Below are positions 541 through 47,027 of a DNA stretch of 48,651 bases, piece after piece. Position 1 is the first letter of the stretch. The number at the start of each line of letters is the position of its first letter. This DNA comes from Betaproteobacteria bacterium HGW-Betaproteobacteria-6 (GTDB lineage: Bacteria; Pseudomonadota; Gammaproteobacteria; Burkholderiales; Rhodocyclaceae), in NCBI GenBank assembly GCA_002842145.1, contig PHCF01000019.1, positions 1 to 48,651 of the forward strand. Reading direction: 5' to 3'. The notes under the pieces were generated by a model. That model did no database searches. It saw only the letters and a list, made by a program, of their open reading frames with translations, and was not told where the DNA came from. The position numbers and the translations under genes were made by a program.

Positions 541-1566
541 TTAGGTACTCTCAGAGCCCTTTCGCGGCGCCGTGGCCCTGTTTTCGAGGTCGCGCAGGAG
601 CATTTTGATTTCGACCTCTTTAAGCTCTCTCGCCATACCGCGTTTCAATTGCGGCGGCAGCACAAACGGACCATAGCGGACGCGGATCAATCGGCTGACC
701 GTAACGCCGACGGCCTCGAACATGCGACGCACTTCGCGGTTCCGGCCTTCAAAGATGGTCACGCGATACCAGTGATTGGCACCTTCGCCGCCGCCGTCGT
801 GCAATGAACCGAAATTAGCCCGGCCATCCTCGAGCTCAACGCCATGCAGCAACTGCTGCTGGGCTTCGAGCGTCAACTCGCCAAGGACACGCACGGCGTA
901 CTCGCGAACCAGTTGCGAACTCGGGTGCATGAGCTTGTTGGCCAAATCACCGGAGGTCGTGAAAATGAGCAGGCCGGAGGTATTGAAGTCGAGGCGACCG
1001 ACGTTGATCCAGCGACCACCACGCATGCGGGGCAGCGCGGCAAAGACTGACGGGCGGCCATCCGGATCATCACGCGAGACAATTTCGCCTTCCGGCTTGT
1101 GGTACATCAGGACGCGCGGCGGACGCGTGCTGCCGGTAAAGCGGATGTTGATGAGTCGGCCGCCAATCTTGACCTTGTCGGTGGGCACCACGGACTGGCC
1201 GATGGTCGCCACGACGCCGTTGACGGTGACCTTGCCAGCCGAAATCCACTCTTCCATTTCCCGGCGCGAACCGACGCCGGCCTGGGCCAGAATTTTCTGC
1301 AGACGCTCGGGCTTGGCTTCGACGACAGCCTTGCCGTTACGCGCGATGTTGCCGCGGCTGGCCCGGCCAGTTGCCGGCAGCGCGGCGCGGCGACGCGGTT
1401 TTGGCGCCTCGACGACCTCTTCAACCTCCGGCGCCTCTTCGCGAGCGTTGCGGGCGGCACGGCCGCGCGGGACTGGATTGCCACGGTCAACCGGAATTTC
1501 CGGCCTTTTTTGAAATCCGCCCGGCTTGCTGGCGGAACGGAGAGGGGTGCGTTTATTGGTTTTCAT
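541..1566 (-). CDS. rluB: 23S rRNA pseudouridine synthase RluB
   Basis: 341 residues. A basic, low-complexity N-terminal extension (1-85) precedes an S4 RNA-binding domain (about 87-135) and a RsuA/RluB-type pseudouridine synthase domain with the catalytic motif [11 protein letters not shown] (190-200, Asp193). The family isomerises uridine 2605 of 23S rRNA. The start overlaps the scpB end by 14 bp, so the genes are probably co-translated. Residues 16-30 of the N-terminal extension are encoded by a copy of the dispersed repeat (1477-1520), in antisense and in frame. RsuA-type enzymes are similar, but the extension and the operon with scpAB fit RluB. Confidence 0.93.
1477..1520 (+). repeat. 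Dispersed ~43-bp repeat, copy A (inside rluB)
   Basis: Begins attgccacggtcaaccgg, then aatttccggcctttttt and gaaatccgc. GGAATTTC and GAAATCC can pair into a hairpin. It encodes part of the RluB N-terminal extension on the opposite strand, including [11 protein letters not shown]. Confidence 0.8.
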
Positions 1567-2098
1567 AATTCAGCTCCAGCGTCTGGGCGATTTGTTCAAG
1601 CGGCGGCAGTTCGCTGACGCTTCTCAGTCCCAGATCATCGAGAAATTGCTTGGTGGTGGCAAACAGGGCCGGCCGACCTGGTGTTTCGCGATGGCCGACA
1701 ACGTCGATCCAGCCGCGTTCTTCTAGTGTTTTGACAACATTGGTATTGACCGCGACGCCACGAATTTCCTCGATATCGCCACGCGTCACCGGCTGACGAT
1801 AGGCGATGATGGCTAGCGTTTCAAGGACGGCTCGCGAGTATTTCGGTGGCCGCTCCGGGTTCAGGCGCTCCAGGTAAGGAAGGTATTCGGGCCGCGTCCG
1901 GAAGCGCCAGCCGGAGGCGAGCTGGATCAGCTCGACCGGACGTTCGGCCCATTCCTCGCGCAACTCGTCGAGCAGCTTGCGCAGGGTATCGGTCGACAAA
2001 TCCTCGTCGAACATTTTTTTCATATCGCTCGGCGACATCGGCTCGCGTGCAGCGAGCAGCGCAGCCTCAAGCACTCTCTTGACCTGGCTCGGTTCCAC
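1553..2098 (-). CDS. scpB: Segregation and condensation protein ScpB
   Basis: 181 residues with the two winged-helix domains of ScpB and the typical core [20 protein letters not shown] followed by a DIEEIRGV segment. ScpB dimers bind the kleisin ScpA and the SMC ATPase, forming the SMC-ScpAB complex that compacts and segregates the chromosome. It overlaps scpA upstream by 32 bp and rluB downstream by 14 bp, which implies tight translational coupling. Length is normal for the family. Confidence 0.95.
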
Positions 2099-2906
2099 CT
2101 TGATGCACTCGGACGTAAATGGGTTGAAAGGCTTCGGTCTGGGTGATTTCGATCAGTTTTTCGCGACCCAGTTCAAGCATGGCAATGAAATGGACAACCA
2201 GACCCGGCACACCCATTTCGGGATCAAACAAGGTTTCGAACTGGACGAAACCACCTTTGGCCTGCAAGGCGCGCAGGATGATTCCCATGTGCTCGCGCAC
2301 CGACAATTCCTCCCGCCCGATCTGGTGATGCTTTTTCAGGCCAGCCTGACGAACGACCGCCATCCAGGCTTCCTTGAGATCATTGACCGAGACTTCCGGC
2401 TGCCGCACCAACAGCGACTTCTCGACCAGTGTCTCGACCCAGAAAAACTCGCGTTCGGCCTGCGGCATCGCATTCAGGTTCTGGCCGGCGAGCTTCATCT
2501 GCTCGTACTCCATGAGCCGGCGCACCAGTTCGGCACGCGGATCTTCAGCGTCCTCGCCCTCGCCCAACTTGGGGCGCGGCAACAGCATGCGCGACTTGAT
2601 CTCGATGAGCATGGCCGCCATCACGAGATAATCGGCGGCCAGTTCGAGATTGCTCGCCCGCATCGCCTCGACATAATCAAGGTACTGCCGGGTCAGCGGC
2701 GCCATCGGAATATCGAGGATATCGATGTTGGCACGCCGAATCATGTACAGCAGGAGGTCAAGCGGCCCCTCAAAGGCATCGAGCATGACGGCCAGCGCAT
2801 CGGGCGGGATGTACAGGTCGAGCGGCATCTGCTCGAGCGGCTGCCCGTAAACGCGGGCTACCGGCTCGACTTCGCCTCCGGGAAGCACTTCGAGAACGTC
2901 GCTCAT
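2067..2906 (-). CDS. scpA: Segregation and condensation protein ScpA (kleisin)
   Basis: 279 residues. The N-terminal kleisin motif [19 protein letters not shown] and the following [16 protein letters not shown] helix are diagnostic of ScpA. The acidic middle region and the C-terminal winged helix also match. It bridges the SMC heads together with ScpB, whose gene starts inside the 3' end of this one. The ATG at 2906 sits 4 bp after the end of the LAB_N gene. Confidence 0.95.
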
Positions 2907-2910
2907 GCGC

Positions 2911-3201
2911 TCAGGAGGCCGCCGCGCGGCCCTTGCCCTTGTAATGCAGATGCAGATTGCGGATATAGATAACCAGACTGAGTACCTGGCCGAAGATGAA
3001 GACCGGATCCTTGCGGTGGATGGCGTAAATCGCCAGCACGATGCCGCCGGCCAGGCTGAAATACCAGAATGAAACCGGTATCACGACCATCTTGGCTTTT
3101 TCGCTGCTCCACCACTGGATGACGAAGCGCATCATGAACAGCGCCTGGCCACCGAAGCCGATGCCGATCCAGATCAGCGTTTCCCAATCGTAGCCGAACA
3201 T
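2911..3201 (-). CDS. Lipid A biosynthesis N-terminal-domain (LAB_N) membrane protein
   Basis: 96 residues with three hydrophobic segments. The conserved pattern GFGGQALFMMRFVIQWW, then a VIPVSFWYFSL stretch and a final helix containing FIFGQVLSLVIYIRN, matches the LAB_N family. This domain is found fused to some lipid A or dolichol-sugar enzymes and as a stand-alone protein. The start codon overlaps the trpS stop. Role unknown; a membrane partner in lipid or glycolipid metabolism is only a guess. Confidence 0.85.
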   Translation of the reverse strand: MFGYDWETLIWIGIGFGGQALFMMRFVIQWWSSEKAKMVVIPVSFWYFSLAGGIVLAIYAIHRKDPVFIFGQVLSLVIYIRNLHLHYKGKGRAAAS

Positions 3202-4403: not shown

Positions 4404-4412
4404 ATTGATTAG

Positions 4413-6646: not shown

Positions 6647-6656
6647 GCCACCCGTT

Positions 6657-6830
6657 CCATGGGAGAGCGCAGATTCGTCTGCCGCCGAAGGCGCAAATCC
6701 ACCCGAAAACGCTCAGGCAAAAGGACCGCGGAACGAGGCGCAAGCCAAAAAACTCTGGAGAGCGATGGCGGCTATTCCCGACATCCACCGATGGGGCAAA
6801 TCTCTCAGGTATCGAGGACAGAGGGGTGAA
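6657..6830 (+). promoter_or_regulatory. Tandem glycine riboswitch upstream of gcvT
   Basis: Two aptamer-like units lie in a row. Unit 1 opens with GGGAGAGCGCAG, has GCCGCCGAAGGCGCAAAUC and closes at about 6755. Unit 2 has CUCUGGAGAGCG, then GAUGGGGCAAAUCUCUCAGG and ends with GGACAGAGGGG. The GAAGG/GGGGC-AAA and CUCAGGNAAAAGGACnG elements are the conserved core of the glycine (gcvT) class. The last aptamer strand runs into the terminator hairpin at 6824-6862, so glycine binding can control termination before gcvT. An on-switch is expected because the operon degrades glycine. Confidence 0.93.
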
Positions 6831-6862
6831 ACGAAAGAACATTCTTTTGTTTCACCCTTTTC
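6824..6862 (+). terminator. Riboswitch-linked intrinsic terminator before gcvT
   Basis: GGGTGAAAC (6824-6832) pairs perfectly with GTTTCACCC (6849-6857), and the stem extends inward through AAAG/CTTT. TTTTCCCGTTT follows. Its 5' side overlaps the 3' end of the second glycine aptamer, the arrangement expected for an expression platform. Confidence 0.8.
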
Positions 6863-8299: not shown

Positions 8300-8310
8300 A
8301 AGCTGCTGGT

Positions 8311-8377
8311 TGTTCCCCCGCCAGCGGGAACCGAAGAAAAGCAAAGCACGGAATCCCCGACTGCACGGGGGTTCCGT
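8311..8377 (+). other. Two hairpins in the gcvH-gcvP spacer
   Basis: GTTCCC (8311-8316) pairs with GGGAAC (8325-8330). A longer imperfect stem follows, CGGAATCCCC (about 8350-8359) with GGGGGTTCCG (about 8368-8377), with an 8-nt loop. No T-run follows either one, so they look like mRNA processing or stability structures rather than terminators. Confidence 0.5.
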
Positions 8378-8405
8378 ATTCAAGTATTTCCATGCAAGGA
8401 TTCCC

Positions 8406-11246
8406 ATGCCGTTGAATCTTCCCCTTTCCGCCCTTGAGCAGCACGACGAGTTCATTGGCCGCCATATCGGCCCGTGCGCAACCGAAATGGCCGCCATGCT
8501 GGCCGCCATCGGCGCCGACAGCCTCGAACAACTGATCGACCAGACCGTCCCCGCCGCCATCCGTCTGCCGGCCGATTTGCCGCTGCCCGCGCCGCGTCGC
8601 GAACACGAAGCCCTGGCCGATCTGAAGGCCATCGCCGGCAAGAACGTCGTCAACAAGTCGTGCATCGGCATGGGCTATTACGACACCCTGACGCCCAAGG
8701 TCATCGTCCGCAACGTGCTCGAAAACCCGGGCTGGTACACCGCCTACACGCCCTACCAGGCAGAGATCGCCCAGGGCCGCCTCGAAGCGCTGATGAATTT
8801 CCAGCAGATGGTCGTCGACCTGACCGGGCTGGAAATCGCCAACGCTTCGCTGCTCGACGAAGCCACCGCCGCCGCCGAAGCAATGACCATGGCGCGCCGT
8901 GTTTCCAAGTCGAAATCCAACCGTTTTCTGGTCGATGCCAACTGTTTCCCGCAGACCTTCGACGTCGTCAAGACCCGTGCCGGCTACTTCGGCTTCGAAT
9001 TGGTCATTGCTACGGTCAACCCGGAAAATGACCCAAAAATCGAAAGTGAAGACTTCTTCGGCGCCCTGCTCCAATACCCGGGCGACAACGGCGAAGTCCG
9101 CGATCTGACAGCCACCATCGCCGCCCTCAAGGCCAAGGGCACCACCGTTGCCGTCGCCTCCGACCTGATGGCGCTGGTCCTGCTCAAGTCGCCTGGCGCC
9201 ATGGGTGCCGACATCGCCCTCGGCTCGAGCCAGCGTTTCGGCATTCCGATGGGTTTCGGCGGCCCGCACGCTGCCTTCTTCGCCACCCGCGAAGCTTTTG
9301 TCCGCTCCATGCCGGGCCGCATCATCGGCCTGTCCAAGGATGCCCGCGGCAAGACCGCCTACCGCATGGCGCTGCAAACCCGCGAACAGCATATCCGCCG
9401 CGAGAAGGCCAATTCCAACATCTGTACCTCGCAGGTCCTGTTGGCCAACATGGCCGGCATGTACGCCGTCTACCACGGCGCCGAAGGCCTGCGCACCATC
9501 GCCGGCCGCATCCATCGATTGACTGCGATCCTGGCCGAGGGACTCAAGCGCGCCGGCATCAACCTGCTGACCAAGCAGTTCTACGACACCGTCCATTTCG
9601 ACCTCGGCGCCCGGGCTGAAACCGTTTATCTCGACGCCCTGGCAGCCGGCTACAACCTGCGCCGCGTCTCGGCCGGCGTGCTGGGTATTTCGCTCGACGA
9701 GACGACGACGCGCAACGATGTCGCCACGCTGTTCAAGCTGATCACCCAGGTCACGCTCGACATGGAGGTCATCGACGCCCAGGTCGCCGCCGCCGATTCC
9801 GCCCTGCCCGATGCACTGATCCGCAGCGACGCCGTTCTCCAGCATCCGGTGTTCAACACGCACCACACCGAACACGAGATGCTGCGTTACCTGAAGTCGC
9901 TGCAGAACAAGGATCTGGCCCTCGACCACTCGATGATCTCGCTCGGCTCGTGCACGATGAAGCTCAACGCGACCAGCGAGATGATCCCGGTCACCTGGCC
10001 GGAATTCGGCGGCCTGCACCCGTTCGCCCCGCGCGACCAGGCCGTTGGCTATCTGGAAATGATCGCCAGCCTGACCGACTGGCTCAAAACCGTCACCGGC
10101 TTCGACGCCATCTGCATGCAGCCGAACTCCGGCGCCCAGGGCGAATATGCCGGCATGGTGGCGATTGCCCGCTACCACGCCAGCCGCGGCGAAGCGCACC
10201 GCAACGTTTGCCTGATCCCCAAATCGGCCCATGGCACCAACCCGGCCACGGCCCAGATGGCCAACATGAAGGTCGTTGTCGTCGATTGCGATGAAAACGG
10301 CAACGTCGATGTCGCCGATCTCAAGGCCAAGGCCGAAGCGCACAAGGACGATCTCGCCTGCCTGATGATCACCTACCCGTCCACGCACGGCGTGTTCGAG
10401 GAAGCGGTCCGCGAAATCTGCGCCATCGTTCATGCCAACGGCGGCCAAGTGTACATGGACGGCGCCAACCTCAACGCCCAGGTCGGCCTGACCTCGCCCG
10501 GCTTCATCGGCGCCGACGTCAGCCACATGAACCTGCACAAGACCTTCGCCATCCCGCACGGCGGCGGCGGACCGGGCATGGGCCCGATCGGCCTCAAGGC
10601 CCATCTGGCGCCGTTCATGGCCGACCACGTCGTCCAGCCGACCGGCGACGCCGGCCGCGTCAATGCCGGCCAGGGCGCAGTCTCCGCCGCCCCCTTCGGT
10701 TCGGCTTCGATCCTGACCATCTCCTGGATGTACCTCGCCATGCTCGGCGGCGAAGGCGTCAAGAAGGCCACGCAAGTCGCCATCCTCAACGCCAACTACG
10801 TCGCCCAGCAGTTGAAGGCGCACTACCCCGTGCTCTACGTCGGCAAGAACACTGACATCGCCAAGCGCCTGATGGACTACGGCTTCCACGCGCCAACAGT
10901 ATCCTTCCCGGTGGCCGGGACGATCATGGTCGAGCCGACGGAGTCCGAATCGAAGGCCGAACTGGACCGCTTCATCGCAGCCCTGGTCAGCATCCGTGAG
11001 GAAATCCGCCAGATCGAAAATGGCGTCTGGTCGGCCGACAACAACCCGCTCAAGAATGCCCCGCATTCACAGGCGGATGTTATCGACGGCGACTGGAAGC
11101 ACCCGTACAGCCGCGAGCAAGCCGTCTTCCCGCTGCCCTGGGTGGCGGCCAACAAGTTCTGGCCGAGCGTCAATCGCATCGACGATGTGTACGGCGACCG
11201 CAACCTGAACTGCGCCTGTCCGCCGATGGAAGCGTACGAGAGCTGA
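8406..11246 (+). CDS. gcvP: Glycine dehydrogenase (decarboxylating), P protein
   Basis: 946 residues from ATG 8406 (AAGGA 5 bases upstream; the in-frame ATG at 8310 lies in the spacer). It is the single-chain P protein with two aminotransferase-like halves. The PLP-binding lysine is Lys712 in [16 protein letters not shown]. It decarboxylates glycine and loads the aminomethyl group onto lipoyl-GcvH. Residues about 201-214 ([13 protein letters not shown] region) are encoded by a dispersed repeat copy at 9006-9048; from memory of E. coli GcvP this segment is a few residues longer here. The stop overlaps the next start (TGATG). Confidence 0.96.
9006..9048 (+). repeat. Dispersed ~43-bp repeat, copy B (inside gcvP)
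   Basis: Begins attgctacggtcaaccc, then ggaaaatgacccaaaaat and cgaaag. It reads in the coding direction as [14 protein letters not shown] within GcvP, a variable loop of the protein. The 3' hairpin arm is degraded. Confidence 0.65.
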
Positions 11247-11833
11247 TGACAGTCGATCTCTCTGCCATCGCCAAATGGCCCAACGTCCCCGCCTGTTACG
11301 ACTGGTTGTCGCTCGACCGGCGGGGCGACTGGCGATTGCAGGGAGAGCGCGTGACACACAGCGGCCTGATCCAGTTCATCAACCGGCAGTACGGTTGCGA
11401 CGAGTCAGGCTGCTGGTTTCTGCAAAACGGCCCGCAACGGGTTTTCGTTGAACTGGCCTACACGCCGTGGGTCTTCCGCCGCGAAGGCGAATCCTTCATC
11501 AGCCATACCGGCGCACCGGCCGGCGAAATCAAGGCCATTTACCTCGACGAAGAAGGCAGCATCCTGCTCGAAACGAGCCTGGGTATCGGCCTGCTCGATG
11601 ACCGCGATTTGCCTGCTTTTCTCGACCAATGTCGCCAGACGGCAAATGCTACGGTCGACGAGAAAAACTGGTTAAAAATGATGTCCGGTGAAGCCATAGC
11701 CGATATCAACTGGTCCTGTTTGCCATTGCAAACCATCCATCGACAGGATGTCGCCGAGCGTTTCAATTTCCAGCCGAATCCCCGCCCCACAGGCGAATAC
11801 AGTGACACCACTGGTCGCGCGCCTGCCAAGTGA
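11246..11833 (+). CDS. Conserved-looking protein of unknown function coupled to gcvP
   Basis: 195 residues whose ATG shares a base with the gcvP stop, so it is very probably translationally coupled. It has no signal peptide or membrane segment. It begins with an AIAKWPNVPACYDWLSLDRRG segment, has a central FVELAYTPWVFRR strand pattern, is rich in Trp and acidic residues, and ends with a polar tail. I do not recognise a catalytic motif. Its place at the end of the glycine operon suggests a role connected with glycine cleavage or one-carbon flux, but that is context only. Confidence 0.75.
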   Translation: MTVDLSAIAKWPNVPACYDWLSLDRRGDWRLQGERVTHSGLIQFINRQYGCDESGCWFLQNGPQRVFVELAYTPWVFRREGESFISHTGAPAGEIKAIYLDEEGSILLETSLGIGLLDDRDLPAFLDQCRQTANATVDEKNWLKMMSGEAIADINWSCLPLQTIHRQDVAERFNFQPNPRPTGEYSDTTGRAPAK

Positions 11834-19309: not shown

Positions 19310-19335
19310 GAACATCCACACCTATTAATACGTTG

Positions 19336-19379
19336 ATTGCTACGGTCAACCGGAAATTTAGCCCAAAAACAAAATCCGG
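19336..19379 (+). repeat. Dispersed ~43-bp repeat, copy C (manC upstream region)
   Basis: Begins attgctacggtcaaccgg, then aaatttagcccaaaaac and aaaatccgg; CCGGA and TCCGG can pair. It is intergenic, between rfbC and manC and 27 bp upstream of the manC start. Confidence 0.85.
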
Positions 19380-19432: not shown

Positions 19433-19975
19433 CTACGCCCCAACCGCATCCTTGAACCGCTGCCCCGCCGCGTCCTTCGCCGACAGCAGCGGTTCACCTT
19501 CAAGCTGCCAGTCAATCGCAAGATCCGGGTCGTTCCACGCGATGCAGCGTTCATGGGCCGGGGCGTAGTAGTCCGTCGTCTTGTAGAGAAACTCAGCCGT
19601 TTCGGAGAGCACGACAAAGCCGTGGGCCAGGCCGGGCGGGATCCACAATTGGCGTTTGTTGTCCGCCGAGAGGATTTCACCGACCCACTGGCCGTAGGTT
19701 TTCGAGCCTTTGCGGATGTCGACCGCAACATCGAAGACCTCGCCCTGCACCACGCGCACCAGCTTGCCTTGCGGCTGCTGCACTTGATAGTGCAGGCCGC
19801 GCAGCACGTTCCGGGCGGATTTGGAGTGGTTGTCCTGGACGAAGGTCACATCCAGCCCGGTGACCTCCTGAAAAACTTTCTGGTTGTAGCTCTCATAGAA
19901 ATAACCGCGGTCATCGCCAAAAACCTTGGGATAGAGCGCGATCACATCGGGAATGGCGGTAGGTATCGCGCGCAT
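19433..19975 (-). CDS. rfbC: dTDP-4-dehydrorhamnose 3,5-epimerase
   Basis: 180 residues of the RmlC cupin family. FGDDRGYFYESYN, the active-site region VLRGLHYQVQQPQGKLVRV, FDVAVDIRKGS and the PPGLAHGFVVLSETAEFLYK strand are all present, with the catalytic histidine in RGLHY. It performs the third step of dTDP-L-rhamnose synthesis. Its start codon overlaps the rfbA stop by one base (TGATG). Confidence 0.96.
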   Translation of the reverse strand: MRAIPTAIPDVIALYPKVFGDDRGYFYESYNQKVFQEVTGLDVTFVQDNHSKSARNVLRGLHYQVQQPQGKLVRVVQGEVFDVAVDIRKGSKTYGQWVGEILSADNKRQLWIPPGLAHGFVVLSETAEFLYKTTDYYAPAHERCIAWNDPDLAIDWQLEGEPLLSAKDAAGQRFKDAVGA

Positions 19976-27117: not shown

Positions 27118-27159
27118 AGCAAACTTCCAGTCCAGAAAACACTCAAGTAGAAAAAGGCT

Positions 27160-27966: not shown

Positions 27967-27973
27967 AACTACC

Positions 27974-29014: not shown

Positions 29015-29187
29015 AAAAATTTAATTCCAAACATGCCGCGCATGATTGATCTATCGTGTTTGGTAATATTTCGTATTTTCTGCTTACCAAACATTCTATT
29101 GGCAAATGCGATTTGTGACGCGCCGATATTACGCACATTAACAAATAGTCGACGAATCAACGAAATAATATGCAAAGCGTTAACCAT
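29011..29187 (-). CDS. 58-aa ORF overlapping both neighbours in the exopolysaccharide operon
   Basis: The ATG at 29187-29185 lies inside the last codons of the acyltransferase gene, and the TGA at 29013-29011 overlaps the GT2 ATG. The product begins MVNALHIISLIRRLFVNVRN and ends with RSIMRGMFGIKFL; it is strongly basic. Perfect overlap at both ends argues for translation. The C-terminal 12 residues resemble the end of the following GT2 protein, so it may be the leftover 3' end of a second GT2 gene, or a small coupled protein. Function unknown. Confidence 0.55.
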   Translation of the reverse strand: MVNALHIISLIRRLFVNVRNIGASQIAFANRMFGKQKIRNITKHDRSIMRGMFGIKFL

Positions 29188-31201: not shown

Positions 31202-31357
31202 ATACACACTCAGTCTGCGAAGGCACACAGGACGCCGATTGTAGAAATCTAATAGCAACTACACACGACTCCAACCCATGGCAATTTAAATTAACCACCA
31301 AAAATATTCAACACACAGGACACTTCGCACAATTGACCAATATCATTAAACACAAGA

Positions 31358-32893: not shown

Positions 32894-34113
32894 CACAGCT
32901 TCCCGGCAATAATCCGCTTCACTGCGCCGGTGAATGCTTTCGCACGTAAGCCAAGTGAAAGCTGTTTAGCACATTGGCGCAAATGCAAGTTTTTGTATTT
33001 TGGCCAAGGCTTTGCGCAGATACTCGCCGCCAAAGCGCGTGCCCTCATTTCCTGTTTCCGCCGGCGCTGATAAGGTTGGATGGCGTTGAGGTCTTCGATG
33101 GGAAACGGCTCAATCGCGATAGTCCCAGCATCAATAGCCCCAGATACCAGCCTTGAGCCAGTATCGGTTCTGGCCAGCACCAGACTGCGGCCTTCCGCCT
33201 CGGCGAAATCCGGGTAGCCATCCTTGCCGCGCCATGCGTCGGCGCCGACAACGTCGGCAAACTCTCCCGTTCCATCAGCACACATCTTGCAGCGCGGCTG
33301 CAAATGGCGGTTCAGTATCGTGCCCCATGCTGTGTTGTAGTCCATGGTTTCACGCCGACCGTTGGTTGTTTCCGCACATGCCAGCCCGGGCCACCCATCG
33401 CCGCGATAGCGAAATCCGACAACCTCGTCCGCTTTCATCTTGAAACGTTGCAGTATTTCGTGCGTTCCCTTCATGCTCGGCGTACCGGCACACATGAAGG
33501 ACAACAAATAGGGAATGCGCGCGGCAAGCTCCGGGCGTGCCAGCACGATCTTGCGTACTGCTGCCACGTCGCATGGCTTGCCAACGAATGCAAATTTCCC
33601 CGGTCGCGCCAGGGCTTCGCGTAACGCTGCCACTGGCGACGCCGGCGCGTAGCGGGAGCCTGCCGCAGCAATAACCTCGTCCCGCGTGCAGCTGAAAACA
33701 CTTTCATTCTTCAGCGGTTGTGTTTCAGAGACACGGGTATGCAAGACAAAATCAATTTTTCCGGTTTCAAGGAGATGGATGAGCAGACCGGAAAGCGCAC
33801 CGCCGGACGAGCCTTTATGGCGGACATCGGGATCGATAGCATGACCGGCGGCCAGTTTTGAGACAGGCCCCCAAACCGGGTGGTAGCTCACGCCCTTATC
33901 GAACTGCTCCGGGTGTTGAAGCGCGATGCCAGGGCAAAATTGACGGATGCTGGATTGCTCGGTTTCATTGAGCGCCCTCAATGCAACGGGGCGCTGAAAA
34001 CCATCGCCGTCAAGGCGCATTTCCACAGCCCCTTGGGCGGTGGCAAACACGCAAGCACCACAACCGGAACAGAGTCCGGCTGCGACGATTTTTTCCATAG
34101 TCATTTCAGCCAT
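32893..34113 (-). CDS. Coenzyme F420 hydrogenase/dehydrogenase beta-subunit (FrhB) family protein
   Basis: 406 residues from ATG 34113, overlapping the pyruvyltransferase stop by 8 bp. The N-terminus has a ferredoxin-like CSGCGACVFA with three of the usual four cysteines. FrhB hallmarks HKGSSGGALSGLLIHLLE, FVGKPCDVAAVRK, SFMCAGTPS and CKMCADGTGEFADVVGADAWRG follow. Family members are flavin and Fe-S oxidoreductases; in polysaccharide loci they often accompany pyruvyltransferases, with unknown chemistry. Nothing here indicates use of F420. Confidence 0.9.
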   Translation of the reverse strand: MAEMTMEKIVAAGLCSGCGACVFATAQGAVEMRLDGDGFQRPVALRALNETEQSSIRQFCPGIALQHPEQFDKGVSYHPVWGPVSKLAAGHAIDPDVRHKGSSGGALSGLLIHLLETGKIDFVLHTRVSETQPLKNESVFSCTRDEVIAAAGSRYAPASPVAALREALARPGKFAFVGKPCDVAAVRKIVLARPELAARIPYLLSFMCAGTPSMKGTHEILQRFKMKADEVVGFRYRGDGWPGLACAETTNGRRETMDYNTAWGTILNRHLQPRCKMCADGTGEFADVVGADAWRGKDGYPDFAEAEGRSLVLARTDTGSRLVSGAIDAGTIAIEPFPIEDLNAIQPYQRRRKQEMRARALAASICAKPWPKYKNLHLRQCAKQLSLGLRAKAFTGAVKRIIAGKL

Positions 34114-35275
34114 GTTTAGCCTCAGCCAACAACTCGGCAAGCAGCCGACGGTACTTTTCCAAGCGCTGCTGGGCTATTTCGTTACCCCTCCTTGTCTCTT
34201 CCCGCAATTGCTCACGACCAGAAAAGGCGGTTTTCATCCTGCTAACGACTTGCGCCTGCGTTTCCTTGGTGCAATCGGCCACATGGGTGTAATTCATGGT
34301 GTTGAATAGGCCTGCAAACTTGCGGCTGTAGGCCATAGGCACACAAGGCACCCCTGACGAAAAAGCAGCGATGCAGGCATGCATGCGCGCACCGGTAAAG
34401 AAACCAAAGCCGGCGATGTAGCCCTTCGCCTCCATGGCCGAGGCAAATGGCCCGGCAACGCTAACAGCCGGGCGGATGCTTGCAATGCGCTGTGATGCGC
34501 GGAGATCATCCTCGGCTTCGCGTTCAGCATTGACGACATGAGGAACGAGAACGACCTCGACGTTAGGTTGTTCGAGGAAATAGTCGATGAGTTCCAGAAC
34601 GGTAGCTTGATAGTCAAGTGTTAAGCCAAACTGGTTATTTCCGGAATATCCACCACCCCAAAGCAGACCGGAAACATTGATGCCCACGCGTATTTTCTCG
34701 CTGCTCCGTGGCACGGCTTCAAACGGCAAAGCGAATGCCACATCAATGATTTCATTGACGGGCTTATTCAGCTTTCTACTTTGAAAATAGGCGGTAGATA
34801 AAGCATCCCGCGAACATACTGCGCGCGCTCTCCGCATCGCCAGATCACCTAGCCAGGCAGCAACAGGGTGTTTAAAAGGCCCGAGCGTCTGGGGACTAAG
34901 CACAAGGGGACGCCCGCCCCGGCTGGCAAGAAGCTTGGTGCCGATCAAGAAGGCAAGACGCTTCCAACCGTATATGTCGGAAAAACTGTCACCCTCGCCA
35001 ATATCAAGTACAAGATCGCACCCTGCGAAGGCTTGACGAAGACTTTTGTCCAGCCCGAGCAAACGCCGACCATTTACCTGGCAAGCCTTGGTGATGCGCG
35101 AATCCGCCAGGCGAGCACCTTCCCGCGTCCAGCCAATAATCGTGAACTTGACCTCAACTTCAGCCATACGCGCAGCCTGCTCGACCAGATGCATTTGCGA
35201 ATAGGTCAAGGCGCCCACGCCAAGATTGGCTGAATCGACGCTGTGCCAGAGCAGTCCTACGTTTAGTAATTTCAT
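34106..35275 (-). CDS. Polysaccharide pyruvyl transferase family protein
   Basis: 389 residues. The N-terminal LLWHSVDSANLGVGALTYSQ, DLVLDIGEGDSFSDIYG and LSPQTLGPFKHP, and the C-terminal GFGFFTGARMHACIAAFSSG, are the WcaK/CsaB family signatures. Members transfer pyruvate from phosphoenolpyruvate to form a ketal on a sugar of the repeat unit, adding negative charge. It lies between the flippase and the FrhB-like gene, with which it overlaps. Confidence 0.9.
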   Translation of the reverse strand: MKLLNVGLLWHSVDSANLGVGALTYSQMHLVEQAARMAEVEVKFTIIGWTREGARLADSRITKACQVNGRRLLGLDKSLRQAFAGCDLVLDIGEGDSFSDIYGWKRLAFLIGTKLLASRGGRPLVLSPQTLGPFKHPVAAWLGDLAMRRARAVCSRDALSTAYFQSRKLNKPVNEIIDVAFALPFEAVPRSSEKIRVGINVSGLLWGGGYSGNNQFGLTLDYQATVLELIDYFLEQPNVEVVLVPHVVNAEREAEDDLRASQRIASIRPAVSVAGPFASAMEAKGYIAGFGFFTGARMHACIAAFSSGVPCVPMAYSRKFAGLFNTMNYTHVADCTKETQAQVVSRMKTAFSGREQLREETRRGNEIAQQRLEKYRRLLAELLAEAKHG

Positions 35276-35305
35276 TCGAAATATCCGAAAAATTTCTGTT
35301 GAGTA

Positions 35306-36535
35306 TTAGCGATTGAATTGCTGTCGAAATGCCAGCCACTGCCTCGCATAAAGGGCAGCCATAGAAAATACAGACAAGGCGTAAGCCAACAGGAAGTACT
35401 TAATCTCAAGCTCGTTGTAAAAAATCAGCGTAATCAACGCCGCGAAAACCGCCATCGCCGCAATCTGTGAAATGACTCGTTTCGCCTGCAGGCCTGCAGA
35501 GGTGATAACGATTCCAGATCCTGCAGCTAGGTACTTGAGCGCCAGAATCAGTGCAAAGAAGGGCATGAGTTGGCCTAGGCCCTGAAATTTTTCACCAAAC
35601 AGAAACGACGATACCTGTTCCGGCATGGCGAGCATCGGGGCAGCAAACAGACTGCCGATGCCGAGCATGGCCCCTGCAGTCAGGAGCGCTGTTCGCTGCA
35701 AACGAGAATCACCGGATTTTGCCTGACGTGCCAGTTTCGGAATCATGACGTTGCCAACCACTGGGGCGAGAGCTGAGACTCCCTGAATGATTTTTTGTCC
35801 GGCGGCATAGATGCCGACAGCCTGCGTTCCGTAAAGCGCGCGAACGACGATGACATCGAGTTGCCCCCAGGCGGTGGTCAGGGCGCCGTCGATCCCATAG
35901 GACCAGACTCGCTTGAAGGTCAGATGCGGCGCTGTTGCATCGCTTTTTCCCAAGGATAGCGATGGAATGACCCGATAGAGGACATGAATGGCGAGCGCCA
36001 GGTAAAACATTCTGGAGGCAAAAAATGCCCAGGCAACAGCTACCGGCGATCCGCCTGACCACGCCACACTCCCGGCGATTACAAACTGCAATGCGTTTGT
36101 GCTCGTGACAATGCCTGTTTCAGCGTCGTATCTTCCAAGCGCCCGCAAGGGGGCCGCGAAAAAATCGGCAAATGACAATGCGATGGCGGCAAGCAGCAAT
36201 GGCAGCGCAAGTTGAAGGGGGAAAACCGAAGTCCCAAGTAAGTATCCTGATGCACTGGCCACAACTAACAAAATCAGCAGCAGGCTGAGCTTCGCCCAAA
36301 AAGCATCCTTGATCAGGCGAACTGCACTATCTGGCTCAGCGCCCAGTTCTCGCAAGATGTAACCAGAGAAACCAAAGTCGACGATTAGCGTCAGCAGTGC
36401 GCTGGCACTAAATGCAAAACTAAACATACCAAAATCAACCGGCCCCCAGAGCCGGGCGAGCAGAACAAATATGACCAAACCCGTCAGCAAGCGACTCCCA
36501 ATGGAAACAGCCGTAAAAAGAAAATTCTTTTTCAT
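35306..36535 (-). CDS. wzx: Oligosaccharide flippase (Wzx family)
   Basis: 409 residues with about twelve transmembrane helices and the MOP-superfamily pattern: an N-terminal FGMFSFAFSASALLTLIVDFG, a middle GIDGALTTAWGQLDVIVV and GIYAAGQKIIQGVSALAPVV, and a late FGEKFQGLGQLMPFFALILAL. It should flip the completed undecaprenyl-linked repeat unit to the periplasm. It is separated from epsI by 145 bp and from the pyruvyltransferase gene by 30 bp. Confidence 0.92.
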   Translation of the reverse strand: MKKNFLFTAVSIGSRLLTGLVIFVLLARLWGPVDFGMFSFAFSASALLTLIVDFGFSGYILRELGAEPDSAVRLIKDAFWAKLSLLLILLVVASASGYLLGTSVFPLQLALPLLLAAIALSFADFFAAPLRALGRYDAETGIVTSTNALQFVIAGSVAWSGGSPVAVAWAFFASRMFYLALAIHVLYRVIPSLSLGKSDATAPHLTFKRVWSYGIDGALTTAWGQLDVIVVRALYGTQAVGIYAAGQKIIQGVSALAPVVGNVMIPKLARQAKSGDSRLQRTALLTAGAMLGIGSLFAAPMLAMPEQVSSFLFGEKFQGLGQLMPFFALILALKYLAAGSGIVITSAGLQAKRVISQIAAMAVFAALITLIFYNELEIKYFLLAYALSVFSMAALYARQWLAFRQQFNR

Positions 36536-36680
36536 GAAGCATCCGAACGGCCAAAGGGCGTAACAAAGCTACCGAGGTTAGAAAACCTTGTATCTCGGCC
36601 CGCCCCTCCATCGCATGCAAAAAACATACTTGGTGCGCATACCGCCCCTGACAAATTGCCATTCATCACAGCCATCGGCC

Positions 36681-37376
36681 TTAGTGTTTACCCAAACTGC
36701 CGACAAGAAAGGGAACGTCCTCGGGCTTGAGTGCCGCTAGAAGGTCTCGGATAAAGCGATCCTGAATCTCGTATGAAAGGCTCGAATCAGCACTTATGGT
36801 GGAAGTGCGAAAGAGCAAACCATCAGCGAACTGGCCCGAAACACCTTGTTTCACGACTGCGATTTTTTGCCCGATCCATCCTTCGGCCAAACTGTCACCA
36901 ACCCTTATCCAATAGGTAATTGGTTCGCTTCTCTGCGACTGAACAGCCAATAGTCTTCTGACTGGAACAGTTCCAATTGAAGTATCGATCTGACCTTTGT
37001 TGCTTTGGCTAACCTGAAATCCCTGCGCCGGGTAGCAAACCTCCGGCCGGTGCACTTGGGACTGTTTGGATTGAACGCCGCCATAAGCTATCGATAGCAT
37101 GACGACTTGCCCACTCTTTGAATCAAGATAGGACCGATCAAGTGTTTGCGAGTAAATGGAGTCGAGTAATTCTTGTTGTTGTGGATTTACGAGGATTACG
37201 TCTGCGCGGCTTAATGTCGACCAAGTTGAAAATGTCTGAGGGATGATTCGCTGGAGGTCAATAGCCTGCAGTTGTTCGCTTGTTGGCAGGGCTGGCTTCA
37301 GAGCAATGGCCATCCCGGCCGCAGCCAGCATGAAGCAAAGCAATATGGGATTACGGAGCGGAAGTTTCATTTTCAT
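36681..37376 (-). CDS. epsI: Exosortase-associated protein EpsI
   Basis: 231 residues. A signal-anchor (about 10-26) is followed by the EpsI domain with YGGVQSKQSQVHRPEVCYPAQGFQV; the cysteine in PEVCYPAQG is conserved in the family. EpsI proteins are periplasmic-side partners of exosortases, either as separate proteins or fused to them; their activity is unknown. The ATG overlaps the xrtB stop (ATGA), so production is coupled. Confidence 0.92.
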   Translation of the reverse strand: MKMKLPLRNPILLCFMLAAAGMAIALKPALPTSEQLQAIDLQRIIPQTFSTWSTLSRADVILVNPQQQELLDSIYSQTLDRSYLDSKSGQVVMLSIAYGGVQSKQSQVHRPEVCYPAQGFQVSQSNKGQIDTSIGTVPVRRLLAVQSQRSEPITYWIRVGDSLAEGWIGQKIAVVKQGVSGQFADGLLFRTSTISADSSLSYEIQDRFIRDLLAALKPEDVPFLVGSLGKH

Positions 37377-38269
37377 ACGGAACCGTTCACAGGGCTGCCA
37401 CGCCAGCGTTTTTCGCCAAGTTGCAGCAACGAATCGACCCCCATGATGATGATCAGCGCGGTGATGAAGAGCACCATGCCGGCAAAGCCGTGCAGGAAGC
37501 CTTGGCCTGCTTCGTCACCGAAGTGGTAGGTAATGAGCGTGAGGACCATGACGCGGATGACGTTGGCCGTGAAGGAGATGGGGATGATCAGGATGGCCAG
37601 CGCGACGTTGCGGAACAGGGAGTCGTGGCGAACGATGTTGAGGTAGAGCAGGCCGAGTGCTTCGAGGGTGAACAGGGTTTGCAGTCCGGCGCACGCGTCG
37701 GCGACGAGCAGTTTGTACTGGCCGATCTGCAGGATGACGCCGGTGCGCGAGATGGGGTAGCCGACCCAGTAGAGGACGTTTTCGGCGACATAGGAGACGG
37801 CCATCTTCATGGGCAGCGTCAGCGCGTCGACGAAGGCACCGGGCAGCGGGATCATGAAGAGCATGAAGAAGAGCGGGAACCAGGCGGCGCCGAGGGCTGA
37901 CCAACCGCGCAGGATGAGCAGCAGACTGGCAATGACGACGATTTGCGAACCGACTTCAAAGAGCAGGATGTCTTGCGAGCGGCCGATGGCGTAGAGCAGC
38001 AGGCCGAGGATGAAGAGCGGCCAGCCGGCTTTTGAGGGGGCCGCAGGCACGCCGTGGATGGTCGGGCCTTGTTTCCAGAAAAACCAGACGGCGACGCTGA
38101 GAATGATGGGGCCGTGGGCCTGCGCTTCGGTGGCCCAGATGGTGCGCGAGAGATCGATCCACGTGGGCACGTAGAGGGCGATGAGGCCGAGGAGAATGGG
38201 GAACCATTCGGCGATGGCCGGGCGGGTTTGATCAGGCAGCATCAGCGCCTTGTCTGCCGTGGAGTTCAT
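37373..38269 (-). CDS. xrtB: Exosortase B (EpsH family, cysteine transpeptidase-like)
   Basis: 298 residues with about eight membrane helices. The proposed catalytic triad is intact: Cys193 in LLVADACAGLQTLF, Arg239 in FTANVIRVMVL and His260 in GQGFLHGFAGM. Exosortases recognise the C-terminal PEP-CTERM signal, cleave after it and probably attach the protein to an envelope component. The co-encoded epsLDEFG and epsI genes identify the XrtB subtype. No PEP-CTERM substrate is encoded in the window. An intrinsic terminator and a dispersed repeat copy lie between epsG and this gene. Confidence 0.95.
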   Translation of the reverse strand: MNSTADKALMLPDQTRPAIAEWFPILLGLIALYVPTWIDLSRTIWATEAQAHGPIILSVAVWFFWKQGPTIHGVPAAPSKAGWPLFILGLLLYAIGRSQDILLFEVGSQIVVIASLLLILRGWSALGAAWFPLFFMLFMIPLPGAFVDALTLPMKMAVSYVAENVLYWVGYPISRTGVILQIGQYKLLVADACAGLQTLFTLEALGLLYLNIVRHDSLFRNVALAILIIPISFTANVIRVMVLTLITYHFGDEAGQGFLHGFAGMVLFITALIIIMGVDSLLQLGEKRWRGSPVNGSV

Positions 38270-38289: not shown

Positions 38290-38332
38290 ATTGCCACGGT
38301 CAACGGGAAATATTGCCAAAAAATGAAATGTC
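38290..38332 (+). repeat. Dispersed ~43-bp repeat, copy E (xrtB upstream region)
   Basis: Begins attgccacggtcaacggg, then aaatattgccaaaaaatg and aaatgtc. Intergenic, between the epsG terminator and the xrtB start (21 bp from the start codon). Confidence 0.8.
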
Positions 38333-38469: not shown

Positions 38470-39339
38470 CTACCCGTTGTTGAGGACAGCGCCGACAACG
38501 GCAACGCCGCTGTGCTGCAGCGAGGTGATGAAGGCTTGCAGGGTCGGGGCGGATGACATGTCCTTGCGGGCGACGACGACGGCGCCGCGGGAGCGGGCGG
38601 CGATGGTCTGGCTGTCGGCGGTTTCAGCGCCGGCCGGGGTATCGACGATCACGATGTCGTACTGGCCGGCGACGGTGGCCATCAGCGCATTAAAAACCGG
38701 GCGTGCGAGCAGTTCCTGTGGATTGGGCGGAGTGGCGCCGGCGGGCAGAACGGATAGATCGACCAGGCCGGGGATGCGGGTGACGGCTTCGGCCAGTTCG
38801 GCGCGGCCGGCCAACAGGCTGGAGAGGCCGAGCTTGTTTTCAAGGCGGAAGAACTGGTGCTGGCTCGGGTTGCGCAGATCGGCATCGATCAGCAGCGTGC
38901 GTTCGCCAAGCTGCGAGAAGACGACTGCGAGGTTGGCGGCGGTGAAGCTGCGGCCATCGGCCCTGCTCGCGCTGACGACAGCCAGCGTCTTGTGGCCGAT
39001 TTCGGCGTCGAACCAGCGCAGCATGAGCTGGCTGCGCACGGCGCGCAGTTGTTCGACGATGGGGCTGAAGGGTTTGAAGGCGGCAACGACTGCTTCGCTG
39101 ACGCGCTCGTCGCCGGGCATCAGATAGGGGTAGTCGTACTGGCGGGAGAGCGCCTGCTGGATGTCGGCTTCGGTGAGCAGGCCAAGCTGGATGGCGGCGT
39201 CTCCGAAGCGCAAGCCCTGCTCTTTTTGCAGCTTGAGGATGCGCTCGGCGGCATCCGGCGTGAGGCCGCCGCTGTCGATGAGGATGGCGCCGATAGAACG
39301 GCCGGCACCGGTGTCGAGTTTGTCGGTCATGGCGTTCAT
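38470..39339 (-). CDS. epsG: Chain-length regulator ATPase/kinase EpsG (CpsD/BY-kinase-like)
   Basis: 289 residues. An N-terminal segment (about 10-75, ILIDSGGLTPDAAERILKL and a QLGLLTEADIQQALSRQY helix) resembles the MshE/GspE N-terminal domain. The MinD-like ATPase fold follows with Walker A-like SRADGRSFTAANLAVVFSQ, Walker A' LLIDADLRNP and Walker B DIVIVDTPAGAE. The Walker A lysine is replaced by arginine (GRS), and the chain ends at VLNNG without the tyrosine cluster of BY-kinases. It pairs with EpsF 6 bp upstream. Confidence 0.92.
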   Translation of the reverse strand: MNAMTDKLDTGAGRSIGAILIDSGGLTPDAAERILKLQKEQGLRFGDAAIQLGLLTEADIQQALSRQYDYPYLMPGDERVSEAVVAAFKPFSPIVEQLRAVRSQLMLRWFDAEIGHKTLAVVSASRADGRSFTAANLAVVFSQLGERTLLIDADLRNPSQHQFFRLENKLGLSSLLAGRAELAEAVTRIPGLVDLSVLPAGATPPNPQELLARPVFNALMATVAGQYDIVIVDTPAGAETADSQTIAARSRGAVVVARKDMSSAPTLQAFITSLQHSGVAVVGAVLNNG

Positions 39340-39345
39340 CTGGAA

Positions 39346-40716
39346 TCAGGCTTTCGTAGCGGCGGGCTGATGGCCCGTTTTGAAGGGGGTTTCACGATTG
39401 CTACGGTCAACCGGATTTTTTGCCCAAAATCGAAATCCTCTTTTTCCCTTGGGCTGCGCGGAATCGAGTTCGGCCAGCACGGGCAGATCGAGGGCCAGGG
39501 CGAGGTCTTCGGCCGAACGGATGCGGCGTTGGCTAAGCTCGAGTACGAGCGCGGCGCCGACACCGAGCATGCCGCCGAGGAAGATGGAAACCAAAACGTT
39601 GAGGAAAACCTTGGGCCGGGAATGCTGGGTCGGCTCGGTAGCCGGGCTGAGGACGAGCACGTTGGTCTGTTGAGACTGCCCCTCGAGGTTGGTTTGCATC
39701 ATGCGCTGGCCGACAGCCTCGTAGGCGCGGCGGGCGGTTTCGACATCGTTGACCAGCACGGAAAGTTCATCGCGCTGCGAGCGCAGGTCAAGCACCCGTT
39801 TCTTCTGTTCTTCGATCGCCTTCTTCAGTTCTTCCTGCTTGACGATGCCAAACTTGCTGGCGACGGCATTGCCGCCGGAGATACGGCCGATTTCCTGACG
39901 AAGTTGCTGGCGCTGCTCGGCGATCTGGGCCTCGAGCTGCAGGACTTGCGGATGGTTCTTGCCGAGGTTGCTGCCGATTTGCGAAAGCTGCGATTCGGCG
40001 CGGGCAATTTCGGCTTTGAGGCCTTGCACCAACGGGTTTTGCAGGACTTCGAGCGAGAGTTCGCTGGTGCCGCTCTTTTGCCGGCTGGAGGCGTCGGCAC
40101 GTTGCGCCTGGGCTGCCGAAAGCTGCATGGTCAGGTCGTTGAGGCGGGCGGTCTCGTTGTCCATCATGCGGTCGTCGGTGACGACGATGCCCTTTTCCTG
40201 CTGGTAGGCGGACAGGCGGGACTGGGCCTTTTCCAGATTGGCGCGCAAACCTTTTTGGCGCTCTTCAAACCAGGCGCTGTACTGGCGAGCCGGCTCGACG
40301 CGCATTTCGATGGAGGTGTCGATATAGGCCTGGGCAAAGGCGTTGGCGACGGCCGCGGCAAAAATCGGATCGGCGCCGGAGAAGCTCACGCTGATGACAT
40401 TGCTCTCCCGGGAAGGCTTGATGTCGAGCTTCTTTTGCAGGATTCCGGCGTAGTAGCCTTCCAGCGTGCCCTTGCCCTCGCTGGCTTCCTTCCAGCTCTC
40501 GACGGCTTCGGCACTCTTCTCGAAGCCCAGCAGCTTGACGACACGGGTGGCGACGCGCTCGCTGTTGATGATGTCCATCTGCGTCGCCATGTAGCCGGGC
40601 GCCATCATGCCCTGCATGATCATGCCGGCGATGGGGTCGGGCACGGTAACGCCAAAAATTGACAACGCCAGCTTGCGGCGAGCCCAGAGGATGAGGAGAA
40701 ATTGCTGAAAAGTCAT
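39346..40716 (-). CDS. epsF: Chain-length determinant protein EpsF (Wzz/PCP family)
   Basis: 456 residues. An N-terminal Wzz membrane helix (about 10-35), a long periplasmic coiled coil (about 170-340) and a second membrane helix (about 375-397, VFLNVLVSIFLGGMLGVGAAL) show the polysaccharide co-polymerase layout. It controls polymer length and links Wzy to the outer-membrane export complex. The cytoplasmic tail (after about 400) contains a dispersed repeat copy (39396-39438, residues about 427-440), with the common peptide core KNPVDRSN. Confidence 0.93.
   Translation of the reverse strand: MTFQQFLLILWARRKLALSIFGVTVPDPIAGMIMQGMMAPGYMATQMDIINSERVATRVVKLLGFEKSAEAVESWKEASEGKGTLEGYYAGILQKKLDIKPSRESNVISVSFSGADPIFAAAVANAFAQAYIDTSIEMRVEPARQYSAWFEERQKGLRANLEKAQSRLSAYQQEKGIVVTDDRMMDNETARLNDLTMQLSAAQAQRADASSRQKSGTSELSLEVLQNPLVQGLKAEIARAESQLSQIGSNLGKNHPQVLQLEAQIAEQRQQLRQEIGRISGGNAVASKFGIVKQEELKKAIEEQKKRVLDLRSQRDELSVLVNDVETARRAYEAVGQRMMQTNLEGQSQQTNVLVLSPATEPTQHSRPKVFLNVLVSIFLGGMLGVGAALVLELSQRRIRSAEDLALALDLPVLAELDSAQPKGKRGFRFWAKNPVDRSNRETPFKTGHQPAATKA
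39396..39438 (+). repeat. Dispersed ~43-bp repeat, copy F (inside epsF)
   Basis: Begins attgctacggtcaaccgg, then attttttgcccaaaat and cgaaatcc; GGATTT and AAATCC pair around TTTT-GCCC-AAAA. Antisense to epsF, encoding RFWAKNPVDRSNR in the cytoplasmic tail. One of the best-preserved copies. Confidence 0.85.
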
Positions 40717-43809: not shown

Positions 43810-43878
43810 TCTTTAAATGTTACCACATTGCACCGCAGCATTTTTCCTATAAACGCCGATTTCGCCCATGAACAATGG

Positions 43879-45719: not shown

Positions 45720-45738
45720 GATGTTTTTTTCCCTGGTG

Positions 45739-46416: not shown

Positions 46417-46448
46417 GTATCCTTCAGCTTTTATCCAGAAGCAAGTGT

Positions 46449-46700
46449 ATGGGATCACGTTGGCTCCCGGGCCTTTTCTCGCGCCTCAAGGCGCTGTTTT
46501 TCGGCCGCACCACCCCGCTTTCCGACTATGCCCGCGCCCGGCAACTGATTGCCGCCGTCGACCGTGGTGGCATCCCGCTCAATCCGGCCAAGGTCAACGC
46601 CATCGCCCGCAGCCTCGGCCTTGAAGTTGCCCGCAACGCGCCGATCGAGGCCACGCTGGAGCGCATCCGCCTCGCCTTGGCGCGCGCCACCGAACCATGA
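46449..46700 (+). CDS. Small conserved-looking protein of unknown function
   Basis: 83 residues from ATG 46449. A short hydrophobic and basic N-terminus (WLPGLFSRLKALFFGR) is followed by a helical part (DYARARQLIAAVDRGGIPL), then KVNAIARSLGLEV and EATLERIRLALAR. The 3' end overlaps the GIY-YIG start (ATGA), so the two are translated together. I recognise no family with certainty. Confidence 0.7.
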   Translation: MGSRWLPGLFSRLKALFFGRTTPLSDYARARQLIAAVDRGGIPLNPAKVNAIARSLGLEVARNAPIEATLERIRLALARATEP

Positions 46701-46963
46701 GCAAGCCCTGGTTTCTGTACATGATCGAGTGTGTCGATGGCAGTATCTACACCGGCATCACCGTGGACGTCGAAAGCCGCTACGCCGCCCATTGCACCGG
46801 AGCAGGCGCACGGTATACGCGCTCGCATCCCCCGCTCCGCCTGCTCGGCTATGAAAATCATCCTGATAGATCATCGGCGTCGAGAGCGGAATACTGGATC
46901 AAGCAACTGACACCCGGCGAGAAGCGTCAGTACGCCGCATCGCTGCACCCCGTCACCGCCTAA
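46697..46963 (+). CDS. GIY-YIG nuclease family protein (UPF0213/YhbQ type)
   Basis: 88 residues. WFLYMIECVDGSIYTGITVDVESR carries the GIY-YIG core (MIE...YTG), and HPPLRLLGYENHPDRSSASR and EYWIKQLTPGEK follow, typical of the short YhbQ/UPF0213 group. Some members nick or degrade DNA; a role in DNA repair or in limiting foreign DNA is possible. It lies immediately upstream of an intergenic dispersed repeat copy. Confidence 0.9.
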   Translation: MSKPWFLYMIECVDGSIYTGITVDVESRYAAHCTGAGARYTRSHPPLRLLGYENHPDRSSASRAEYWIKQLTPGEKRQYAASLHPVTA

Positions 46964-46983
46964 AAGCACAACTAAAACCGGAA

Positions 46984-47027
46984 ATTTCCGTTTCAATTTT
47001 GGGCAAAAATTCCGGTTGACCGTGGGA
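46984..47027 (-). repeat. Dispersed ~43-bp repeat, copy G (downstream of the GIY-YIG gene)
   Basis: Read on the minus strand: tcccacggtcaaccgg, then aatttttgcccaaaatt and gaaacgg. An adjacent CGGAAATTTCCG palindrome (46979-46990) lets CCGGAA pair with TTCCGG across the whole element. Intergenic. Confidence 0.85.

Follow-up and report, generated by a model that had tools for sequence, protein, structure and literature searches.

A dispersed repeat of an Azonexus/Dechloromonas genus as a probable DNA uptake sequence

Introduction

What is the short repeat that recurs along the 48,651-nucleotide stretch of contig PHCF01000019.1 (Betaproteobacteria bacterium HGW-Betaproteobacteria-6; the whole stretch is hereafter the window), in both orientations and partly inside genes? 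A sequence-only reading had listed eight copies of it, regarded it as an uncatalogued dispersed element and proposed that it might be a mobilised REP-like (repetitive extragenic palindromic) element, a protein-binding site or selfish DNA. Our analysis of the window's own genome and of its relatives makes it very likely that this repeat serves as a DNA uptake sequence in what is presumably the genus Azonexus/Dechloromonas, a role for which we infer uptake, a receptor and molecular drive from the sequence. The available portions of a 2016 review (PMC5031613) and of a 2020 study of Haemophilus influenzae (PMC7811141) name the Pasteurellaceae and the Neisseriaceae as the families with sequence-tagged uptake; their elements are known as uptake signal sequences (USS) and DNA uptake sequences (DUS), respectively. 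Among the matches listed in the open-licence literature there was no paper on an uptake sequence in the present group, and 'Dechloromonas' is absent from the accessible main text of a 2017 survey of spaced motifs; the description of the repeat as an uncatalogued dispersed element is upheld.

A strict core followed by A/T tracts

The repeat is real and more abundant than had been reported. Its head, YACGGTCAACCGGAA, with at most one mismatch, occurs 471 times in the 4,315,322-bp genome of the window (G000; G numbers are our genome labels) and not once in the reversed control; the copies comprise 241 forward and 230 reverse heads, in agreement with the two orientations noted earlier, and the prospect that few further genomic copies would be found is not borne out. 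A 40-bp weight matrix covering positions -5 to +34 around the core was built from 89 seed copies that deviate at no more than one of 14 bases. Because these seeds were so limited, and because 20 of the stretches that make up our own-genome DNA (the window plus these 20, 437 kb) were picked for holding matches, the 47 bits of the matrix are an upper figure. In these 437 kb, 106 matches reach at least 10 bits, as against none in the reversed sequence. The eight listed copies of the window lie within a few bases of the reported positions and score 44.8-57.8 bits, and a ninth, weak copy (32.2 bits) lies at 11651. The same matrix was applied to 20 evenly spaced 20-kb stretches (400 kb) of the single-contig genome G305, in which it found 73 copies (control 0; about 757 per genome by extrapolation) with letter frequencies nearly those of the own copies.

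The 89 own copies and the 73 G305 matches give the consensus ATTSCY ACGGTCAACCGGAA WWWW N GSCM AAWWT YG AAAT. Its core, ACGGTCAAC, is near-invariant, the A at +7 giving way to G in 6% of the own copies and in 14% of those of G305. Three A/T tracts follow at +13 to +18, +24 to +28 and +31 to +34, in which A and T are interchangeable, the first two lying one helical turn apart; in both sets of copies conservation is confined to about -6 to +34. The strictness of the core is seen with its 9-mer, a word picked after inspection of the matrix: perfect cores number 89 in the own stretches (reversed control 5) and 64 in those of G305 (control 5), whereas singly mismatched cores number 163 (control 168) and 143 (control 122). 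The excess over control thus consists wholly of perfect copies in the own DNA and mostly of perfect copies in G305. Such an excess of perfect cores over those with one mismatch has been described as a puzzling trait of both USS and DUS (Redfield and colleagues, PMC1626085, available in part).

An intracellular DNA-binding protein, whether nucleoid-associated or engaged in segregation, replication or regulation, might also use the element as its site, as a long defined motif with helically phased A-tracts, present in both orientations and hundreds of times per genome, would suit such a protein. We consider this unlikely; the scarcity of singly mismatched cores differs from what the same partly available paper (PMC1626085) reports for relaxed protein sites, and the placement of the copies, described below, also speaks against it.

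A hairpin formed by pairing of head and tail, as had been proposed, is not supported. Eight column pairs were compared among 137 copies of at least 30 bits; at the four inner pairs of the tracts, 31-41% of these copies show complementary bases, as against 32-41% after shuffling. As the tracts pair no more than shuffled columns, the hairpin reflects those copies whose first tract happens to be of the T type.

Distribution and dialects

A count of exact own-type heads over 297 genomes of the family gave 227 in the window's own genome, 152 in G281, 12 in G177 and 0-5 in nine other sampled members of the genus; a single head was seen in each of five genomes of other genera. With a pattern that tolerates dialects, 58 of the 76 genus genomes contain at least one copy (control 0 in all). 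Twelve of them, which we call rich, hold 140-393 copies (G000 305, G177 246, G281 255, G305 393, G310 347, G315 353, G322 365, G325 140, G331 365, G335 391, G336 347 and G347 306), and the other 64 genomes of the genus hold 0-53. Among 399 genomes of the order, six members of the genus have 2-305 copies and the 393 others have 0-1, four of them with one copy (two control matches). One 30-base form was located in 18 stretches of named species genomes, which are titled Azonexus, Dechloromonas, Azonexaceae, Rhodocyclaceae or by class or phylum only, and we take the genus to be Azonexus/Dechloromonas of the Rhodocyclaceae. On a GcvP tree of 50 genomes, 11 of them rich (G331 left out), the rich state needs 2 changes, compared with 10.1 when shuffled, and none of 500 shuffles was as low; the rich genomes form nearly one clade. 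Viral spread was considered and rejected, as one strict form occurs in just two viral contigs of the scanned collection (L239 and L240, one exact copy each).

The core itself shifts among relatives. G177, in which the own-dialect pattern finds 107 copies and the tolerant one 246, favours CGGTCRACGGC; G281 often has TGCGGTC (10 of the 15 listed matches), and G333 has TTTGACGGTC in two of three matches. At some sites that genomes share, the dialects differ while the register is kept. G281 (a contig of 3,463,890 bp) also has a softer consensus, many GCGGTC cores and no ComEA over the cut-off, and may be losing competence or changing dialect. A further dialect was sought de novo, with 10-mers, in G301 (80 kb) and G358 (20 kb), both element-poor and both small samples; nothing convincing emerged. 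Other over-represented words were seen in G112 (CCCTCTCCCC, 9 copies in the 80 kb of L129-L132) and in G347 (words around TTTACTCCCTCATTTAC, 7-8 copies in the 28.6 kb of L145-L146, probably one tandem array).

Copies change in place

Orthologous sites show how copies arise. In the UDP-GlcNAc 2-epimerase gene, the best-testable site, the element is present in G177, G347, G281 and the intermediate genome G333 and is swapped base for base in the element-poor G301, G112, G358 and G317, whose genes are 75-81% identical overall. These four poor relatives match only 18-28 bases of the element, with flanks about 78-86% identical; the copy is therefore not merely conserved coding sequence, a prospect that had been raised for the copies inside genes. 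More broadly, 218 comparisons were retained in which the identity of the flanks reaches 72% (116 with poorer flanks were dropped); they span 66 distinct sites, some counted repeatedly and 27 of known gene status. In these comparisons the element is present in 81, absent without gaps in 72 and gapped in 65. It is present in 74 of 104 comparisons with rich genomes (eight named records being counted as rich without a copy count) and in 7 of 114 with others. None of the 218 is a clean empty site lacking at least 30 of the 40 bases, in a search that left target duplications outside its scope. The element was changed in place and not inserted whole.

These results bear directly on insertion by a transposase. 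Like REP elements with their RAYT (Y1) transposases, the element is short, dispersed and present in many copies; its two orientations and restriction to a lineage would also fit a mobilised REP- or MITE-like repeat (MITE, miniature inverted-repeat transposable element), and a Y1 transposase is present in five of the 12 rich genomes, as it is in many poor ones. However, no such transposase was found in the other seven (G305, G310, G322, G325, G331, G335 and G336), the eight column pairs show no palindromic stem or other internal complementarity, clean empty sites are lacking, and the spacing of copies is regular (see below). Moreover, what the copies have in common is columns and tracts of interchangeable A and T, not one decayed sequence, and one strict form reaches only the two viral contigs. 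We regard a mobilised repeat as very unlikely, and this part of the earlier proposal is not supported.

Placement along chromosomes

Of 98 own copies, 53 lie inside genes, 37 outside and 8 straddle a boundary; the figures for G305 are 50, 19 and 4 of 73, and chance would place about 90% inside and 5.6% outside in either case. Genes were placed with a home-made gene caller that chose 38857-40662 (+) over the Pfam-supported 39346-40716 (-), and single placement entries may therefore be wrong. Copies on the coding strand prefer one frame, ACG GTC AAC (24 of 32 own, 23 of 31 in G305). The enrichment between genes and the occasional inverted pairs (one close pair each in stretch L002 and contig C101) might suggest a transcription terminator or a regulatory RNA structure. 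Against this stand the lack of a pairing signal, the more than half of own and G305 copies that lie inside genes, and the Rfam matches in the window, which comprise only a tandem glycine riboswitch and a tRNA, neither overlapping a copy. Terminator pairs closer than 150 bp, sought in the own and G305 samples, were not found. We consider a role of this kind extremely unlikely.

Copies are regularly spaced. Only 1 of 77 neighbouring pairs in the own, hit-selected stretches is closer than 500 bp (9.8 in simulation, P 0.0002), and 0 of 54 in the stretches of G305, which were not hit-selected (5.5 in simulation, P 0.0036). In G305, 19 of the 20 stretches hold 2-6 copies, so that the element is spread over the whole chromosome, and 39 of the 73 copies point along replication, as tallied by hand on replichores that were guessed from the GC skew. 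This occupancy and the lack of a replication-strand bias argue against a site for an intracellular protein, as do the absence of the element from acquired DNA and its toleration in housekeeping genes at the cost of protein changes.

Despite the A/T-rich motif, copies are sparse where G+C is low. Across 5-kb bins of own and G305 DNA, their numbers are 1 in 6 bins with G+C below 0.52, then 7 in 18 and 23 in 32, and 133 in 108 bins at or above 0.60, a climb in density per 5 kb from 0.17 to 1.23. G305 has a 20-kb catabolic island of low G+C (L162) that contains no element, and in the window a low-G+C polysaccharide gene block (26068-37376, no strand assigned; G+C 0.48 at 30-35 kb) has none of at least 14 bits. 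The same holds for two mobile inserts that split comEC into two pieces on one contig in rich genomes, about 43 kb apart in G335 (C1:2720194-2765330) and about 34 kb in G322 (C33:109264-144789). The former carries a transposase set of the Mu/Tn7 type (rve, TniB, TniQ) and the latter a serine recombinase and a phage integrase, alongside a restriction enzyme and further genes. Together these inserts (77 kb) contain no element, as against 14 predicted from the density in G305; the sole match in each of the two fetched sets of stretches adjoins the comEC pieces, outside the insert. Split comEC genes with pieces 20-64 kb apart on one contig were seen in at least 8 of the 76 genus genomes (G335, G322, G342, G297, G201, G333, G303 and G359). 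This repeated splitting looks as if comEC were a target of mobile DNA, and the two inserts that were inspected carry recombinase or transposase genes and defence-type genes.

Competence genes

DprA exceeds the cut-off in all 12 rich genomes and ComEA in 9 of them, and ComEC does so in 68 of the 76 genus genomes, including 11 of the rich ones. DprA, ComEA and ComEC are general genes that do not discriminate rich from poor. The ComP_DUS pilin family (PF16732) was also tried as a discriminating gene and rejected, because it is near-universal in the genus and matches several pilin types; the matches are assorted pilins that are not tied to the element count. The solved relatives of the own PF16732 protein are pilins, including PilE, and its gene adjoins pilY1- and ispH-like genes.

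An uptake model and its weighing

As far as sequence can say, the element works like known uptake sequences and is probably a third family of them. We propose that a minor pilin of the type IV pilus may bind the near-invariant core ACGGTCAAC(CGG), and that the A/T tracts one helical turn downstream may, by analogy with H. influenzae, help the DNA to bend or melt as the retracting pilus draws it through the outer membrane. Import and protection of the strand would fall to ComEA, ComEC and DprA, after which recombination would replace the homologous stretch. As better-matching fragments would enter more often, the motif could build up in the shared DNA of the species through mutation and recombination rather than transposition; DNA acquired recently would have yet to gain it, and shifts of the core between lineages would create dialects that favour uptake from close kin. 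The earlier suggestions of a protein-binding site and of selfish DNA come close to this uptake model, because an uptake sequence would be bound by a surface receptor and could spread by molecular drive.

Comparable behaviour is documented, in the portions available, for the known systems. Uptake by H. influenzae requires a short inner core and is aided by the A/T tracts through shape and perhaps strand separation; drive makes its uptake sequences accumulate, new DNA contains disproportionately few of them, and they are spread relatively evenly at about 1 per kb (PMC7811141). DUS dialects hinder transformation between species (PMC3630211), and DUS are few in acquired DNA of low G+C (PMC2397512). 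The Pasteurellaceae USS, of the Hin type (AAGTGCGGT) and the Apl type (ACAAGCGGT), likewise have a strong core followed by A/T segments, the second segment of the Hin type being centred 12 bp beyond the first; they also occur in genes and preferentially between them, are spaced with some regularity, have perfect cores in larger number than singly mismatched ones and fall into subclade-specific types (PMC1626085, in the part available). Like USS, the present element has two A/T segments downstream of the core, at 13-18 and 24-28, about a helical turn apart. Some dialects of its relatives share the letters GCGGTC, the part that was compared, with the Apl 10-mer ACAAGCGGTC (10 of 15 listed G281 matches). 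In contrast to USS, it has its own core (ACGGTCAACCGG as against ANNNGCGGT), a third A/T block at +31 to +34 and a lower density, and it belongs to another bacterial family.

The Neisseriaceae are likewise Betaproteobacteria in the older naming. The element resembles their DUS (GCCGTCTGAA and its dialects) in its lineage-specific dialects (PMC3630211) and in its scarcity in acquired DNA of low G+C (PMC2397512), both as far as the available text goes. It differs in an unrelated core without the invariant CTG centre of the GCCGTCTGAA dialects, and in size and shape, since DUS are 10-12 bp long, number about 900-5900 copies per genome and do not have phased A/T tracts in the available part of their description (PMC3630211). 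As its core agrees with that of neither known family, the element belongs neither to DUS nor to USS. On balance we lean towards a third, independently evolved, self-recognising family in a Rhodocyclaceae genus, whose dialects act as partial mating barriers. By convergence it would share with the Pasteurellaceae USS the design of a core plus phased A/T tracts and, in some dialects, also the letters GCGGTC.

Several observations weigh against an uptake sequence. Copies mismatched over a 14-mer are common (0, 1 and 2 mismatches in 44, 28 and 22 own and in 26, 26 and 15 G305 copies), the raw strands in G305 are uneven (29 forward, 44 reverse), the density there of about 1 per 5.5 kb is lower than the roughly 1 per kb of H. 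influenzae, and close inverted pairs (below 150 bp) are lacking in both the own and the G305 samples. ComEA falls under its cut-off in three of the 12 rich genomes, G281, G315 and G325, one of which is a complete chromosome. PF16732 occurs in 70 of the 76 genus genomes, rich and poor alike, and, as its matches are assorted pilins, it singles out no receptor. The comEC matches of the window's own genome lie in two frames (C145:64643-66402), broken or mis-assembled; with comEC in two frames there and in two pieces in G335 and G322, these strains may not transform now. Many copies kept despite a damaged comEC or without a clear ComEA would also be explained by an intracellular binding protein. 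If the element is an uptake sequence, one may speculate that rich genomes with an interrupted comEC lost uptake recently or that the insert occasionally leaves.

Substitution in place is not the whole account either, as 65 of the 218 orthologous comparisons are gapped and the site in GcvP is not a pure substitution. In a 50-genome codon alignment of this gene, five codons at the site are common to all 11 rich genomes included and absent from 37 of the 39 others, and a head such as ATT GCT GCG GTC GAC is common among the other genomes. The five extra codons are also present in G323 and G326, and G062 has a separate nine-codon insert in the same loop.

If correct, a third family would provide an independent test of whether uptake tags spread by drive alone, and would predict that bacteria not so far known for natural transformation undergo it, with preferred partners. 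As rich, dialect-shifted and near-empty relatives stand side by side in one genus, the gain, change and loss of the element could be traced directly.

Copies and neighbouring features in the window

As had been reported, five of the eight copies lie inside genes and, by the lists of open reading frames (ORFs), the other three are intergenic. The first, ATTGCCACGGTCAACCGGAATTTCCGGCCTTTTTTGAAAT (1477-1516, +; 46.6 bits; listed at 1483), lies near the N-terminus of an RNA pseudouridine synthase gene (541-1566, -), and its G177 ortholog aligns without gaps and carries a different dialect. The second (9006-9045, +; 44.8 bits; listed at 9012) is translated as 13 residues in the gene for the glycine dehydrogenase GcvP (8310-11246, +). 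The fourth (22443-22482, -; 53.9 bits; listed at 22476), in a nucleotide-sugar dehydratase/epimerase gene (21758-22819, -), has a gapless counterpart in G177. The fifth (25404-25443, +; 46.5 bits; listed at 25410) is the one in the UDP-GlcNAc 2-epimerase gene (24918-26021, -), and the seventh (39397-39436, +; 53.5 bits; listed at 39403) occupies the 3' end of a gene for a GNVR-domain protein (39346-40716, -), with a counterpart in G347 and others with small gaps in G333 and G177.

The intergenic copies are the third (19336-19375, +; 57.8 bits), between ORFs 17870-19321 (-) and 19433-19975 (-); the sixth (38290-38329, +; 55.6 bits), between genes for an exosortase (37373-38269, -) and a ParA-like ATPase (38470-39339, -), with a counterpart in G333; and the eighth (46990-47029, -; 54.7 bits), upstream of ORF 47182-47811 (+). 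The weak ninth copy (11645-11684, +), with the core ACGGTCGAC, is absent from the earlier list and lies in ORF 11246-11833 (+). The tandem glycine riboswitch recognised by Rfam (6650-6831) is located upstream of the glycine cleavage genes.

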